The notes below the pieces were generated by a model. The model worked only from the letters and a program-made list of their open reading frames with translations, did no database searches and was not told the origin of the DNA. From contig NZ_RQYL01000004.1 in the NCBI RefSeq assembly GCF_003860125.1, positions 1-64,000 of the forward strand: 64,000 nucleotides of DNA, read 5' to 3'. Both the position numbers and the translations under genes were made by a program. This document shows positions 8,515-35,219 of the stretch, piece by piece (positions within the stretch are counted from its first letter, which is position 1; every line of letters begins with the position of its first letter). Origin of the DNA: Fretibacterium sp. OH1220_COT-178. GTDB lineage: Bacteria; Synergistota; Synergistia; Synergistales; Aminobacteriaceae.

Positions 8515-8652
8515 TTTGACTCCTCCTTGACGGATAACGGGTTTTCCGGCACGCGCGCCGGAGCACTGCGCGAGGTCGGAGAAGACAAGGCTCCTCGGTG
8601 TCGTTGGGTTGAGTATATCATCCGAAGTGGTTTTTAAAAAGATTCACCCTTG

Positions 8653-30638: not shown

Positions 30639-31691
30639 TTATTGTGCGTGTCTCATGAGCGCGTTGTATTGTTCGTCGTTCAGGTCTATGGAATAGAACA
30701 GTTTGTAGAAGTCTTTGATCTCTCGTGCCGGATCGGACGTGTATCGGTCGGGGTGGAGCAGGCGTCCCAGCCACTGAATGCCCATCAGGCGATTGACCGA
30801 TGGAGGATTGGAGACAAAACTGTAGGGGGCGGAGGGAATTTTATATACGCGTCCCTTCTTGACCGCCTGGACCTCGCTCCATATCGCGTCCGTCGTGATC
30901 ATCTCGTACAACGCGTCGGAATCGGCGAGGACGACCTCGGGGTTCCAGGATAAGACCTGTTCCATGGACACCGTACTGCCGCTTCCCCTGGAGTTCGGTT
31001 CGACATCCGCCACGTTGACCGCGCCGACCTTTTCCAGGACCTCTGCGTGGAACGAGCCGCGGGCGTTGGTGTTCAGCCCCGTCTTGCCGGAGGCCCAGTA
31101 GACGCGGACCCGCTCGGCGTCCTTCAATTCCTTCCGCACGGAGGCCGCATGATCGAGACGCTTGCGGCAATAGGCGCCGAGCGTCTCTGCGCGCTCGGTA
31201 TCGCCGGTCAGGGTTCCCAGCAGGGCGTAGGCCTCGGGCAAGGTATCGAGCGTTGCCCGCACGAAGGCCACGGGCATGTTTAATTGCCTTTGCAGGCCGT
31301 CCATGTCCTCTCGAATGGTCTTCTTGGCCTCGCCGACGTCGACGACGACCTCCGGGCCGGCGGCGATGAGCGCCTCCATGTTGAGATTTGCGTTCTTGCC
31401 GTAAAACTGGCCAAATTTAGGAAGGCCCCAGTAGCGCTCGTTGATGTAAAGACGAGCCTCCTCGGAGAAGTCCGCCGCGATGCCGGCCAGCTTATCCGGG
31501 CAGAGGGTGTAGAGAAAAATCTGCGCCAGAGGTCCCGAAGGAGCTACTTTTTGGACCGTCTGCGGAACCGGGACCGTCCGCCCGGCCGAATCGGTGAAGC
31601 TGCGCGCCGTCTCCGAGGCCGAGCAAGGCACCGAGCCGATGAGAAGCGCGATCATCGACAAAAGGAACAAACGCCGTAAAGCCTTTCTCAT
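30639..31691 (-). CDS. ABC substrate-binding protein, FecB/TroA-like (metal, oxyanion or cobalamin class)
   Basis: A 350-residue exported binding protein. A signal peptide (RKALRR, hydrophobic core, cleavage near CSA) is followed by the two-lobed helical-backbone fold: FTDSAGRTVPVPQTVQKVAPSGPLAQ at the start and MEQVLSWNPEVVLADS near the C-lobe. This class II type binds iron complexes, B12, or molybdate/tungstate (MolA). ATG 31691 has AAAGGAG upstream. It is the last gene of a five-gene minus-strand operon, 34 bases after the ATPase gene. The operon's ModE-like first gene favours an oxyanion substrate, but iron or B12 cannot be excluded. Confidence 0.82.
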   Translation of the reverse strand: MRKALRRLFLLSMIALLIGSVPCSASETARSFTDSAGRTVPVPQTVQKVAPSGPLAQIFLYTLCPDKLAGIAADFSEEARLYINERYWGLPKFGQFYGKNANLNMEALIAAGPEVVVDVGEAKKTIREDMDGLQRQLNMPVAFVRATLDTLPEAYALLGTLTGDTERAETLGAYCRKRLDHAASVRKELKDAERVRVYWASGKTGLNTNARGSFHAEVLEKVGAVNVADVEPNSRGSGSTVSMEQVLSWNPEVVLADSDALYEMITTDAIWSEVQAVKKGRVYKIPSAPYSFVSNPPSVNRLMGIQWLGRLLHPDRYTSDPAREIKDFYKLFYSIDLNDEQYNALMRHAQ

Positions 31692-31725
31692 GATGAATCT
31701 CTCCTTTCGATCGTGCGATCCTTCC

Positions 31726-32508
31726 TCAGGAATGCCCTCGTTTTGGGGTGCAGACGACCCCCGTCTTCAAGCGATGAAGCTCCAGCGGGACACCGTACAT
31801 TCGTTCCAGGATTTCTCGATCCAGGACCTCCTCGGGCAGCCCCATCCGCTCCGTCCGTCCGTCGAGCAGAACCAGAGCCGAATCGGCGAAGGCGAAGGTC
31901 TGGTCTGGGTTGTGAGTCGAAACGAGGATGAGGAACCCCTGGCCCGCCAGGTGACGGGCACAGTGCCATATCCGGATCTGATTGCCGTAATCGAGGCTCG
32001 AACAGGGCTCGTCCATCACCAGAATTTGCGCATTTTGGGCCAGGGCTCTGGCGATCAGAACCAATTGCAGCTCACCGCCGGAGAGGCGATGGCAGAGACG
32101 GTTCGCCAGGTGGGAGACTCCAACGGTATTCATGGCCTCCTCCGCCCGTCGTCTTTCCCGTCGGCCAGGGACGGAAAGGCAGCTCAGGCCGGGGGTGGTT
32201 CCCATCAGTACCGCCTCGAAGGCCGTGAGAGGAAGGGCCGCGGGACGTCCCTGGGGAATATAGGCGAAGGCACGGGCCCGTTCGCGGATACTGAGGCTTT
32301 TCAGATCCGCTCCCCCCACCTGTATCTTCCCGGCGGAGTAGGGGAGCAGGCCGAGAATACAGCGAAACAGGGTGCTTTTTCCTGCCCCGTTTCGCCCCAG
32401 GACGGCCAGCAGCGTCCCTGCCTCGACCGAGAAGGAGACGCCACGGAGGACGCGGCGCGTTCCGTAGTCCGCATGGAGGTTGCAGACGCCAAGATGCCGT
32501 TCCGTCAT
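31726..32508 (-). CDS. ABC transporter ATP-binding protein (FecE/BtuD type)
   Basis: A 260-residue ATPase. Walker A is GRNGAGKST, the Q-loop IPQG, the signature LSGGELQLVLIARAL, Walker B ILVMDEPCSSLD and the switch histidine STHNPDQ. Its C-terminal part (GLPEEVLDREILERMYGVPLELH) is typical of the iron/B12/Mol-type importers. The ATG overlaps the TGA of the permease gene by four bases, so translation is coupled. AGGAG lies nine bases upstream. Confidence 0.93.
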   Translation of the reverse strand: MTERHLGVCNLHADYGTRRVLRGVSFSVEAGTLLAVLGRNGAGKSTLFRCILGLLPYSAGKIQVGGADLKSLSIRERARAFAYIPQGRPAALPLTAFEAVLMGTTPGLSCLSVPGRRERRRAEEAMNTVGVSHLANRLCHRLSGGELQLVLIARALAQNAQILVMDEPCSSLDYGNQIRIWHCARHLAGQGFLILVSTHNPDQTFAFADSALVLLDGRTERMGLPEEVLDREILERMYGVPLELHRLKTGVVCTPKRGHS

Positions 32509-33509
32509 CTCGAGCGCTCCTGTCGAAGGATCAAGTAAAGAAAAAAAGGTGCTCCCGCAAAGGCGGTAAGAATCCCAATGGGCACCTCGCTCGTCGCCAT
32601 CATCCTGGAAAAGTCGTCGGCTATGGGCAAAAACGCGCCTCCCAGCAAAATGGAAGCCGGAATGCTGCGCCGACAATCGCTTCCGATGAGGGAGCGTGCG
32701 AGATGCGGGACGACCAGTCCCACCCATCCGATCATTCCGCTGACCGAGACGCAGGCCGCCGTCACGAAGGTCGCGCAGACTATGGCCGTGCAGCGCACAC
32801 GATGCACGTGAACCCCCATCGTCTGTGCCTCTTCGTCGCCGACCGACAGCACGTTGATGCGCCATCTCAAAAGGAGCAGGCAGAGCATTCCCAGGAGGAT
32901 CGGCGGAGCCGCGAAAGAAAGGTCCTGAGATCGGATGGAGGCCAGGGAGCCCATGAGCCAGTAGGTGATGACGGGAAGGGTATTGGCGGGATCCGCTACA
33001 AGCTTGAGAAAGGACACTCCTGCAGTGCAGAGGGAGCCGACCATGATGCCCGAGAGCAGAAGTCCCAAGACGGGGTTGCCGCGCACCCGAGAGGCGATCA
33101 GGACGACGAGTCCTACGGCAAGCAGCCCGGACAAGAAAGCGCAGACCGAAACCGCCAGGTAGCCGAGTTCCAGATAGAGTCCCAGAGCGGCGCCAAGCCC
33201 CGCACCGGCCGAGGCTCCGAGGAGATCGGGGGAGACCAGCGGATTTTGAAATACGCTCTGGTAGACCGCTCCGGAGCATGAAAGCCCTGCACCGATCAGG
33301 ATTCCCATGAGAACGCGCGGCAACCGCACTCCATAGAGTACCGTCTCCACCTGAGAAGCCCAGTCGGGCGTCAGAGGGAGCAGGGGCGCCGACAAGACGC
33401 GCACGACGGTGCCCGGAGCGATGAAATACCGGCCAAGGCCGAGGGAGATGACGGTCGAGGCCATAAACAATCCCGTCAAGAGAAGGAAACGACCTTTGGT
33501 GGATTTCAT
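32505..33509 (-). CDS. ABC transporter permease (FecCD/BtuC family)
   Basis: A 334-residue membrane protein with ten predicted helices, as for BtuC-type permeases. Motifs: VRLPRVLMGILIGAGLSCSGAVYQSVFQNPLVSPDLLGASAGAGLG (family hallmark), ANTLPVITYWLMGSL and GMIGWVGLVVPHLARSL, the coupling-loop region for the ATPase. It overlaps both neighbours by four bases (ATGA), so NTPase, permease and ATPase are translated as a coupled set. ATG 33509 has GGGGGGA six bases upstream. Confidence 0.93.
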   Translation of the reverse strand: MKSTKGRFLLLTGLFMASTVISLGLGRYFIAPGTVVRVLSAPLLPLTPDWASQVETVLYGVRLPRVLMGILIGAGLSCSGAVYQSVFQNPLVSPDLLGASAGAGLGAALGLYLELGYLAVSVCAFLSGLLAVGLVVLIASRVRGNPVLGLLLSGIMVGSLCTAGVSFLKLVADPANTLPVITYWLMGSLASIRSQDLSFAAPPILLGMLCLLLLRWRINVLSVGDEEAQTMGVHVHRVRCTAIVCATFVTAACVSVSGMIGWVGLVVPHLARSLIGSDCRRSIPASILLGGAFLPIADDFSRMMATSEVPIGILTAFAGAPFFLYLILRQERSR

Positions 33510-34123
33510 GAGCGTCCCCCCGGGAGGCGGTTGTTGTAGGGGAGGAGAAACTGACGTACAAGCCGCCCCGCCTCTCGTCGTGTTTCCGTCGTCACGGAGA
33601 AAAGCCGAGTGCGCGGGCTCGAGAGCAGAGCCTCGCGAAGCTCCCGATGGCGCCGCAGATATTCCTCGGGAAGCCCGAGCGTCCGGGCCAACTTCATGGC
33701 GTGAGCGGTGGATTTCAGCACTCCGATGCAGGGCACGCCTCCGTTCAGGACCTCCAGCAATCGTGCGTGAAATGCGTCGAGGAGGATTTCGGCTCCTCCG
33801 AACTCGTCGAGCAGAATGAGCCGCTTTTCGGCCGAGGAGGCCAGAAGCGCCAGCCCCGTACCGATGAACACCTCCGCTTGCCACCGCATTCTATCGCCAT
33901 CACGCTCCAGAAAGATGTTGGGCGCATCCGGAGCGTAGGGGAGTGAGGAATGCCCCGAAAAGTCGGGGGAGGTCAGAGAAAAGGCACGGGTGTTCGCATT
34001 TTCGTCGAGCAAGCGCCGTGTCACGAACCCTCCTGCCCAGGAGAGCAATGGCCCCAGTTCCGCCAACAACAGAGTCGTCTTCCCCACCCCCGAGGGGCCT
34101 TCGAGAAACAGGTGGCTGCACAT
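33506..34123 (-). CDS. Small P-loop NTPase (THEP1/NTPase_1-like)
   Basis: A 205-residue P-loop protein: LFLEGPSGVGKTTLLLAEL (Walker A) at the N-terminus, GGFVTRRLLDE soon after, and LILLDEFGGAEI (Walker B). The order and the GGF-x-T-R motif match the THEP1/NTPase_1 group of nucleoside triphosphatases. Its cellular substrate is unknown. Relatives have been noticed beside molybdenum-related genes. ATG 34123 follows the ModE-like stop by eight bases; the ribosome site is weak, so coupling is likely. Its TGA overlaps the permease start. Confidence 0.72.
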   Translation of the reverse strand: MCSHLFLEGPSGVGKTTLLLAELGPLLSWAGGFVTRRLLDENANTRAFSLTSPDFSGHSSLPYAPDAPNIFLERDGDRMRWQAEVFIGTGLALLASSAEKRLILLDEFGGAEILLDAFHARLLEVLNGGVPCIGVLKSTAHAMKLARTLGLPEEYLRRHRELREALLSSPRTRLFSVTTETRREAGRLVRQFLLPYNNRLPGGRS

Positions 34124-34131
34124 CGGGGCCT

Positions 34132-35049
34132 TTATCTCGCAGGCGGCAGAAGAACGTGAAAACAACTTTGAAAGGCTTCCTGCGCCATTCCCTGGACCAC
34201 CTTTTCAAATTTTCGGTAGGCCTCCAACAGAGCCCGGCCCTCCGCCGTAAGCGAGGAGCTGCCCCCATTTTTGCCTCCCTGTCGACGCAGGATCAATGGC
34301 GTTCCCCATTCGCTCTCCATGTCCCTGAGAATCTTCCAGCCCTTGCTGTAGGACATTCCCATCCTTTGGCAGGCCAGACGGACGGAGTGCGTTTCCTCGA
34401 TGAGAGAGAGGAGGTCCGAGGAGCCCTGTCCGAAAAAGGGCTTTCTCCGCACCAGACGGATGCGCAGTTCCGGAAAAACGGAGGGCTGCGGAACCTCGGA
34501 GGACTGGTCAAAGGGAAGGATTATCCCTCTATCCCGGACTTCGAGGGTGCTGAAAGTCCGGATATGGCGCTTCAGCGCCGCAAAGGGAGGCTGCTCCTCC
34601 ATCTCCTGGATCTGCAGGAGCTCGGGGATCAGCGCCGTCGAAAGGCCGATGGGATATCCCTCCTTTCCCTCGTGCGTCGGCACGACCGAAGGAGCGTTCG
34701 AGGCCAGAACCGCGGCGGCGGCATCCGTGGAGAAAAAGGGGTAGTCCGCCGATGCGAGCAGGACACGCTCGCACTTGCTCTGAAGATGGAGCAGCCCCTC
34801 CCTGAGCAGAAGAAAAGAGGGGCTGCCGGACTTGGGAGCGATGCAGAACGCGCTCATATGCGCTACATGTTTTTTCAGGGAGTCCAGACAGTCCGGAGGA
34901 GAGACCAGGACGACGAGATCCGCCCCCGCCCGTTGAAAGGTTCGCACTGCCCGATGTACGGGTGACGCCTTTTGTCCTCCTCCGCGAATCGGGGTCATGC
35001 CCTCATAGAGATTGGACCCGAAAACGATCAGCAGTGCCCCTGTCGCCAT
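34132..35049 (-). CDS. Fusion: nucleotidyltransferase-like domain + ModE-type DNA-binding domain
   Basis: A 305-residue two-domain protein. Residues 1 to about 180 have the pattern of a MobA/MocA or CofC-like nucleotidyltransferase (alternating strands and helices, [28 protein letters not shown]), but the usual GxSxRMG loop is not evident ([16 protein letters not shown] instead). Residues about 195-290 are a LysR-type winged helix as in Mod[35 protein letters not shown], then [12 protein letters not shown]. No molybdate-binding TOBE domain is present. GGGAGGA precedes ATG 35049. It leads the operon with the NTPase and ABC importer and so probably links molybdenum or tungsten state to uptake. 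Confidence 0.72.
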
Positions 35050-35080
35050 TTCTTTTCCTCCCTCGAGGCCGTTCTCACAA

Positions 35081-35098
35081 GTTGTTTTATAGAATAAC
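35081..35098. promoter_or_regulatory. AT-rich dyad upstream of the ModE-like operon
   Basis: GTTGTTTTATAGAATAAC is an imperfect 18-base palindrome centred on TATA (14 of 18 positions symmetrical). It overlaps a minus-strand TATAAA box and is 32 bases from the start of the ModE-like gene. ModE operators are AT-rich dyads of this general kind, so it is a reasonable autoregulatory site. Confidence 0.4.
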
Positions 35099-35219
35099 TC
35101 GTCTTTGAAATAATAGAGCAAAAAAATGGGGGCGTCAATCGACGGAGTGAGATGGGCTATAAAACAAAAAACAGGAGTAGGTTGGGGCTGCTTGGCGCTC
35201 TCCGAGGGCAAAACGCCCC

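Follow-up and report, generated by a model that had tools for sequence, protein, structure and literature searches.

Which ion is taken up by the importer operon at positions 30,639 to 35,049 of the window (the whole stretch of DNA that was analysed, 64,000 nucleotides from Fretibacterium sp. OH1220_COT-178), and how could this uptake be controlled by a ModE-type regulator that lacks the molybdate-binding TOBE domain? With a probability of roughly 0.72, we consider that the operon serves the uptake of molybdenum (possibly tungsten) and is governed by its own repressor, which would act on a 24-bp palindrome, control a regulon of four operons, and carry a MocA-like domain as its sensor.

A five-gene operon with a MolBCA-like importer

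Five coupled genes, here named A to E, run on the minus strand from position 35,049 down to 30,639. The first, gene A (34,132 to 35,049), encodes a regulator fusion of 305 residues, assigned from Pfam, NCBIfam, PDB alignment, and a structure model. It is followed after 8 bases by gene B (33,506 to 34,123), a THEP1-like NTPase, and then by the parts of an ABC importer, namely a FecCD-class permease (gene C, 32,505 to 33,509), an ATPase (gene D, 31,726 to 32,508), and a periplasmic binding protein (gene E, 30,639 to 31,691), with an ATGA overlap at both the B-C and the C-D junction and 34 bases between genes D and E. The coordinates, overlaps, and short A-B gap bear out the tight coupling proposed in the original prediction, and the Pfam matches of genes B to E (NTPase_1, FecCD, ABC_tran, and Peripla_BP_2) agree with the succession of a THEP1-like NTPase and a FecCD-class importer that it described. 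The match of gene B to NTPase_1 (PF03266; 6.8e-9) reaches 36.2 bits against a cut-off of 23.9, and both the Walker A (GPSGVGKT) and the Walker B motif are intact. The same NTPase family adjoins such importers in three Clostridia loci (L143, L144, and L148), and in L016, a genome related to Fretibacterium, one of its members adjoins an HTH-only ModE; gene B presumably has a role in the operon.

The permease matches FecCD at 2.8e-84, and its nearest relative among solved structures is MolB (HI1471; 2nq2, 3e-60), ahead of FhuB (1.8e-47), HmuU (7e-47), and BtuC (2e-35). When the family profile of the binding protein was compared with the PDB, two structures with no assigned ligand (4pag and 4ovk) outranked MolA (3psa, 1.3e-26), which came first among binding proteins of known ligand and ahead of a B12 carrier (3e-11) and a heme carrier (7e-9). 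In addition, the importer missed the family cut-offs of IsdE (39 versus 299 bits), BtuF (31 versus 234 bits), and BtuC (PRK09535; 221 versus 461 bits). The binding protein thus does not cluster firmly with iron or B12 carriers, and an iron or B12 importer was rejected on the basis of these cut-offs and the PDB ranking. The rankings of MolB and MolA, the molybdenum linkage seen in a neighborhood survey, and an operator shared with molybdenum operons (see below) support the MolBCA-like importer that had been suggested, and its transported ion would be a molybdenum (possibly tungsten) oxyanion.

MolBC-A of Haemophilus influenzae is a low-affinity molybdate importer that operates in parallel to ModBC-A (PMC4031551). 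The window importer is likewise of class II, coexists with ModABC, and has MolB and MolA as its nearest relatives of known ligand, whereas its operon differs by the addition of a ModE-type fusion and an NTPase. The operon is not the genome's only molybdate importer, a candidate role that we rejected, since ModABC is encoded on contig C10 and a second mod-type set on contig C1. With these two systems in the host genome, the importer is redundant here, which speaks against a molybdenum function.

Spirochaetes carry related operons with the gene order ModE (HTH only)-FecCD-ATPase-methyltransferase-binding protein, several of which are situated inside selenium-dependent molybdenum hydroxylase clusters, next to yqeC, yqeB, xdhC, selD, and genes for the hydroxylase subunits. 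In the spirochaete order surveyed, the binding protein occurs in 86 of 139 genomes and MoeA_N in 2, a scarcity that counts against the molybdenum reading. As the sole marker of molybdenum use in Spirochaetes, MoeA_N is misleading, because molybdenum hydroxylase genes are present there and MoeA-like proteins with MoCF only exist elsewhere (in L026 and on C10 of the host genome; the spirochaete stretches examined showed none). These neighborhoods bear on whether the importer could have a different cargo, such as a metallophore or a selenium oxyanion that supplies selenium-dependent hydroxylases, in place of molybdate or tungstate. We regard such a cargo as quite unlikely: it would fit the proximity of binding-protein relatives to selD, yqeB, and yqeC, the ModABC already present in the genome, and the lack of MoeA_N in most spirochaete carriers, but the operator recurs at the modABC, moaA, and moeA loci, the nearest relatives of known ligand are MolB and MolA, and no ModB over the curated cut-off was found in eight spirochaete genomes that carry the binding protein.

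A ModE-type winged helix fused to a degenerate MocA-like domain

Gene A had been predicted to join a degenerate MobA/MocA-like nucleotidyltransferase domain to a ModE-type winged helix without a TOBE domain, and both halves of this description stood up to domain search and motif alignment. The winged helix (about residues 200-295; 34,180 to 34,452, minus strand) was recognized from sequence matches: residues 217-272 match HTH_1 in Pfam, the ModE domain of NCBIfam TIGR00637 is matched at 3.3e-16 (59 bits, under its cut-off of 98.5), and PDB entry 2ijl (8.7e-12) and E. coli ModE (3.5e-4) align over residues 195-286. The HTH is therefore related to ModE, and it is the sole ModE domain found in the host genome. 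No match to a TOBE domain was obtained for gene A in Pfam at E ≤ 10. The matches listed in the fold search (see below) are those of the N-terminal domain, with no ModE structures among them, and the assignment of the winged helix therefore relies on sequence evidence.

The N-terminal domain (residues 1-190; 34,480 to 35,049, minus strand) has a MocA/IspD fold according to alignment and the structure model, and Pfam places NTP_transf_3 over residues 31-150 (4.7e-9, above the cut-off). In the AlphaFold2 model of the fusion (pLDDT 89.6), this domain matched MocA-like 3d5n (4.7e-10), Rv0371c (6.8e-9), and CofC-like structures in Foldseek, and a VIA comparison with IspD gave Z scores up to 20.8 with an rmsd of 2.4 over 171 residues. 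While the domain thus passes as MocA/MobA by fold, it does not by the defining motifs LAAGxSxRMGxxK and DxDTP. The LAAGxSxRMG-K nucleotide loop (residues 9-23), its lysine, and the DTP motif (residues 179-186) are gone, loop residues 19-24 are poorly ordered in the model (pLDDT under 50), and D102-x-P104 and G131-x-P133 are retained in the alignment. The domain shares the nucleotidyltransferase fold with MocA (TIGR03310) and the DVU_1551 family (NF045665), intact members of which take part in maturing the cofactor of molybdenum hydroxylases, but it differs from them in its missing motifs, in its fusion to a DNA-binding domain, and in scoring far under both family cut-offs (32 versus 186 bits for TIGR03310, the molybdenum cofactor cytidylyltransferase). 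The possibility that the fusion is the only MocA of the host was rejected, as a separate MocA-like protein with an intact loop (LPAAGLSRRMG) is encoded on C19. With this protein and MobA on C13, the host need not rely on the fusion for catalysis. Given the lost loop, lysine, and DTP motif and the intact enzymes encoded elsewhere, the N-terminal domain is probably a pseudo-enzyme sensor.

The same fusion is present in at least 12 genomes of Clostridia and Synergistota. A scan of genome contigs with the window protein as a single sequence gave no match; a profile scan gave 44 loci, with more fusions in Christensenella, Lachnospiraceae, Oscillospiraceae, Peptococcaceae, and others, and a few more came from a set of 394 genomes of a single clostridial order. 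Among 188 genomes of Synergistota, the full fusion is found in 2, the host and Synergistaceae OttesenSCG-928-I11 (L021, identical to L017). The latter belongs to the same order as the host, and a Fretibacterium MAG (L032, identical to L016) belongs to the same family. In the window and in L022, L029, L036, and L178, the fusion has a FecCD-type importer or the binding protein of one in its vicinity. In 10 of the 13 fusions compared (window included), loop, lysine, and DTP motif have disappeared together, with the DxP aspartate kept in most, while three Clostridia fusions (L024, L025, and L177) retain both the AAGxSSRMG-FKP loop and DTP, and a fourth fusion (L027) retains the loop. In the tree, the window protein clusters with L028, L029, and L036 (support 95/96), all of them degenerate. 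The intact and degenerate states require two changes on this tree, with which a single origin of loop loss would still be compatible.

The intact relatives raise the question of whether the fusion could be a bifunctional "trigger enzyme", a nucleotidyltransferase still active on Moco that turns into a repressor whenever it is idle, as those relatives with an intact loop may be. For the window protein, this appears very unlikely. The motifs kept in the three Clostridia fusions, the loop of L027, and the DxP and GxP of the window protein would be in keeping with such a function; however, the window protein itself is without the loop, lysine, and DTP, its loop region is disordered in the model, and the genome has its intact-loop MocA-like protein elsewhere. 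A pseudo-enzyme sensor therefore remains our preferred reading of the domain.

It had been claimed that no regulator working in this way was described. A literature search, which covered few subscription papers, found no published MocA- or MobA-ModE fusion, and to this extent the claim holds. It needs two qualifications, namely that the fusion already occurs in the genomes counted above and that ModE proteins without TOBE were noted in Desulfovibrio in 2004, as a DNA-binding domain only, with molybdenum sensing not clear (PMC545781). In the part of that report that deals with them, the Desulfovibrio proteins are single-domain and no MocA-like fusion is mentioned, whereas the window protein is a fusion. 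The ModE/TudE and TaoR-like regulators listed for gut microbes, all with one or two TOBE domains (PMC11980592), resemble the fusion in that they are HTH-containing regulators for molybdenum or tungsten.

A predicted operator and regulon

A 24-bp palindrome, CGAnTnnTTTyNNrAAAnnAnTCG, recurs upstream of spirochaete and clostridial genes for ModE proteins or importers. With a matrix of ten sites from Spirochaetes and Clostridia, in which no sequence of the window or of Synergistota was included, the best site of the 64-kb window is CGAGTTATTCTATAAAACAACTTG (35,078 to 35,101, minus strand). Its score of 22.1 exceeds the maximum of 16.3 in 20 simulated windows, and the runner-up in the window (position 8623, score 16.5) is at noise level. 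A match statistic obtained with a pattern fitted to the window site itself was given no weight. The predicted operator begins 8 bases past the -10 box of a promoter predicted from consensus match only (TTGACG-17-TATTAT; 35,110 to 35,138, minus strand), that is, just downstream of the operon promoter. A link of the motif to molybdate that does not involve the importer comes from Mediterraneibacter and Ruminococcus, where the motif immediately precedes modA in a neighborhood with an HTH-only ModE and xdh/yqeB/yqeC. As HTH-only relatives in Spirochaetes and Lachnospiraceae share this operator, DNA targeting does not require the N-terminal domain.

An E. coli-type ModE operator was rejected, as no match to the E. 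coli-type box was found in the 64-kb window when 3 mismatches were allowed and a different palindrome is present instead. The published E. coli consensus, as given in the 2004 report, is ATCGNTATATA-N6-TATATANCGAT (PMC545781), and the same source gives cgGTCACg-N14-cGTGACCg as the Desulfovibrio ModE operator, which is also not of the E. coli type. Nevertheless, E. coli ModE and the fusion are alike in their winged-helix family and in a palindromic site that has CG close to both termini, and the predicted regulon of the fusion, like that of E. coli ModE, comprises molybdate uptake and molybdenum genes. The fusion differs from E. coli ModE in its operator and in having an N-terminal MocA-like domain in place of TOBE domains.

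To delineate this regulon, 1.48 Mb (52%) of the host genome was scanned with the matrix, including about 220 kb chosen for molybdenum, MobA-like, or solute-binding genes, with contigs C34, C24, and C21 put into the scan in the knowledge that they carry binding-protein relatives. Four sites scored above 17 in the scanned part, all of them before molybdenum-type or MolBCA-like operons, and the maximum in three second-order simulations of the same size was 16.0. Besides the site of the window operon, these are C10:26143, before moaA-moaC-MOSC-moeA-like-modA-modB-modC-mogA; C1:73605, before DUF4213/364-methyltransferase-FecCD/SBP remnant-moeA-second mod importer-modD; and C34:1541, before a second SBP-FecCD-ABC operon. 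In the other roughly 1.1 Mb scanned, apart from the window and the chosen stretches, no match reached 15. The fusion may thus govern four operons, which would be the MolBCA-like importer, moaA-moaC-MOSC-moeA-like-modABC, moeA with the second mod importer and modD, and the further FecCD importer.

The winged helix would bind the palindrome beside the transcription start, and the fusion most likely acts as a transcriptional repressor under molybdenum sufficiency, as judged from the operator position and the known behavior of the ModE family. E. coli ModE both activates and represses, and the C34 site lies about 136 bp upstream of its gene, both of which would suit a regulator that is an activator at some targets instead of a general repressor. 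At the window operon, however, the site 8 bases after the predicted -10 box is in a typical repressor position, and we consider this alternative unlikely.

A candidate sensor of the molybdenum cofactor

With its motifs lost, the MocA-like domain would most likely replace TOBE as the sensor of (i) molybdopterin, (ii) Moco, or (iii) a Moco-loaded partner, its ligand thus being the molybdenum cofactor or a precursor. The use of the same operator by HTH-only relatives speaks against a sensor role of the domain, and the sensor may also act in trans; for these reasons, we put this sensing step at about even odds.

Alternatively, the domain could be a vestige or scaffold, with the winged helix governed by a partner such as the NTPase or a Moco-binding protein. 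We find this somewhat unlikely, although HTH-only ModE proteins that share the operator are encoded at the start of the spirochaete importer operons and before modA in Lachnospiraceae, and one is paired with the NTPase in the Fretibacterium-related genome. Against it stand the confident predicted fold and the residues C93, D102, P104, D171, and G173, which are common to most fusions despite only 30-36% identity and suggest continued selection on the N-terminal domain. Extending the sensor reading to the whole regulator family of Clostridia and Synergistota, so that an inactive MocA domain responds to the cofactor, as molybdopterin or Moco, instead of the molybdate ion and the intact relatives are enzyme-regulators that gave rise to the sensor, is a tentative proposal that we hold at slightly less than an even chance.

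The factor that represses mol transcription in H. influenzae was unknown as of 2014 (PMC4031551). The operon described here brings together a candidate sensor in fused form, a defined (predicted) operator, four operons as its predicted regulon, and relatives whose enzyme domains range from apparently intact to degenerate, by which both sensing by ModE proteins without TOBE (PMC545781) and the repression of mol-type importers (PMC4031551) become directly testable. A large set of importers similar to iron and B12 transporters would thereby be given a regulon and a probable substrate. If the proposed sensing is true, the final product of cofactor maturation would govern metal uptake.

Operator sites and a promoter-flanking repeat

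An exact 11-bp inverted repeat, TTGTTTTATAG, was found by sequence match at 35082-35092 (+) and 35157-35167 (-) (2 matches observed versus 0.2 expected), and its arms flank the predicted promoter of the window operon, with one arm lying within the predicted operator. Elsewhere in the same genome, the top-scoring operator site of the 1.48 Mb scanned is located on contig C34 (L239:1541-1564), ~136 bp upstream of a second, more distant operon annotated, by homology only, as encoding a solute-binding protein, FecCD permease, and ABC ATPase. A weak operator-like palindrome upstream of an aminotransferase-like gene in the window (8623-8646) scored 16.5, which is within the noise of simulated sequences.

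An operator also heads a moeA/modD operon on contig C1, within which an open frame (C1:75127-76008; L142:2628-3509) begins as a FecCD permease and continues as a MolA-like binding protein, of which it has the C-terminal two thirds. This joined frame is apparently a collapsed second importer.

Related operons and fusions in other genomes

The Lachnospiraceae form of the operator, CGATTGCTTTTNNAAAAGCAATCG, lies 5' of modA and precedes modABC, with genes for an HTH-only ModE and a selenium-dependent hydroxylase as neighbors (loci L030-L045 and L055). MolBCA-like importer operons of Spirochaetes and Clostridia regularly include a class I methyltransferase (L047:12090-12758, L022:2108-2833, and L020:1384-2124). 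The usual MocA fusion of Synergistota, seen at L018:9231-10313, L019:1414-3075, and in many other genomes of the phylum, appears to carry a DVU_1551-type extra C-terminal region in place of ModE.

Molybdenum enzymes and cofactor genes

Although MoeA_N was found in only 2 of 139 genomes of the spirochaete order that includes G198, genes for molybdenum hydroxylase, yqeB, yqeC, and selD were present in the inspected genomes of that order. In the window's own genome, a formate-dehydrogenase-like molybdopterin oxidoreductase (C13:30247-31515) contains a single in-frame TGA, which probably encodes selenocysteine.
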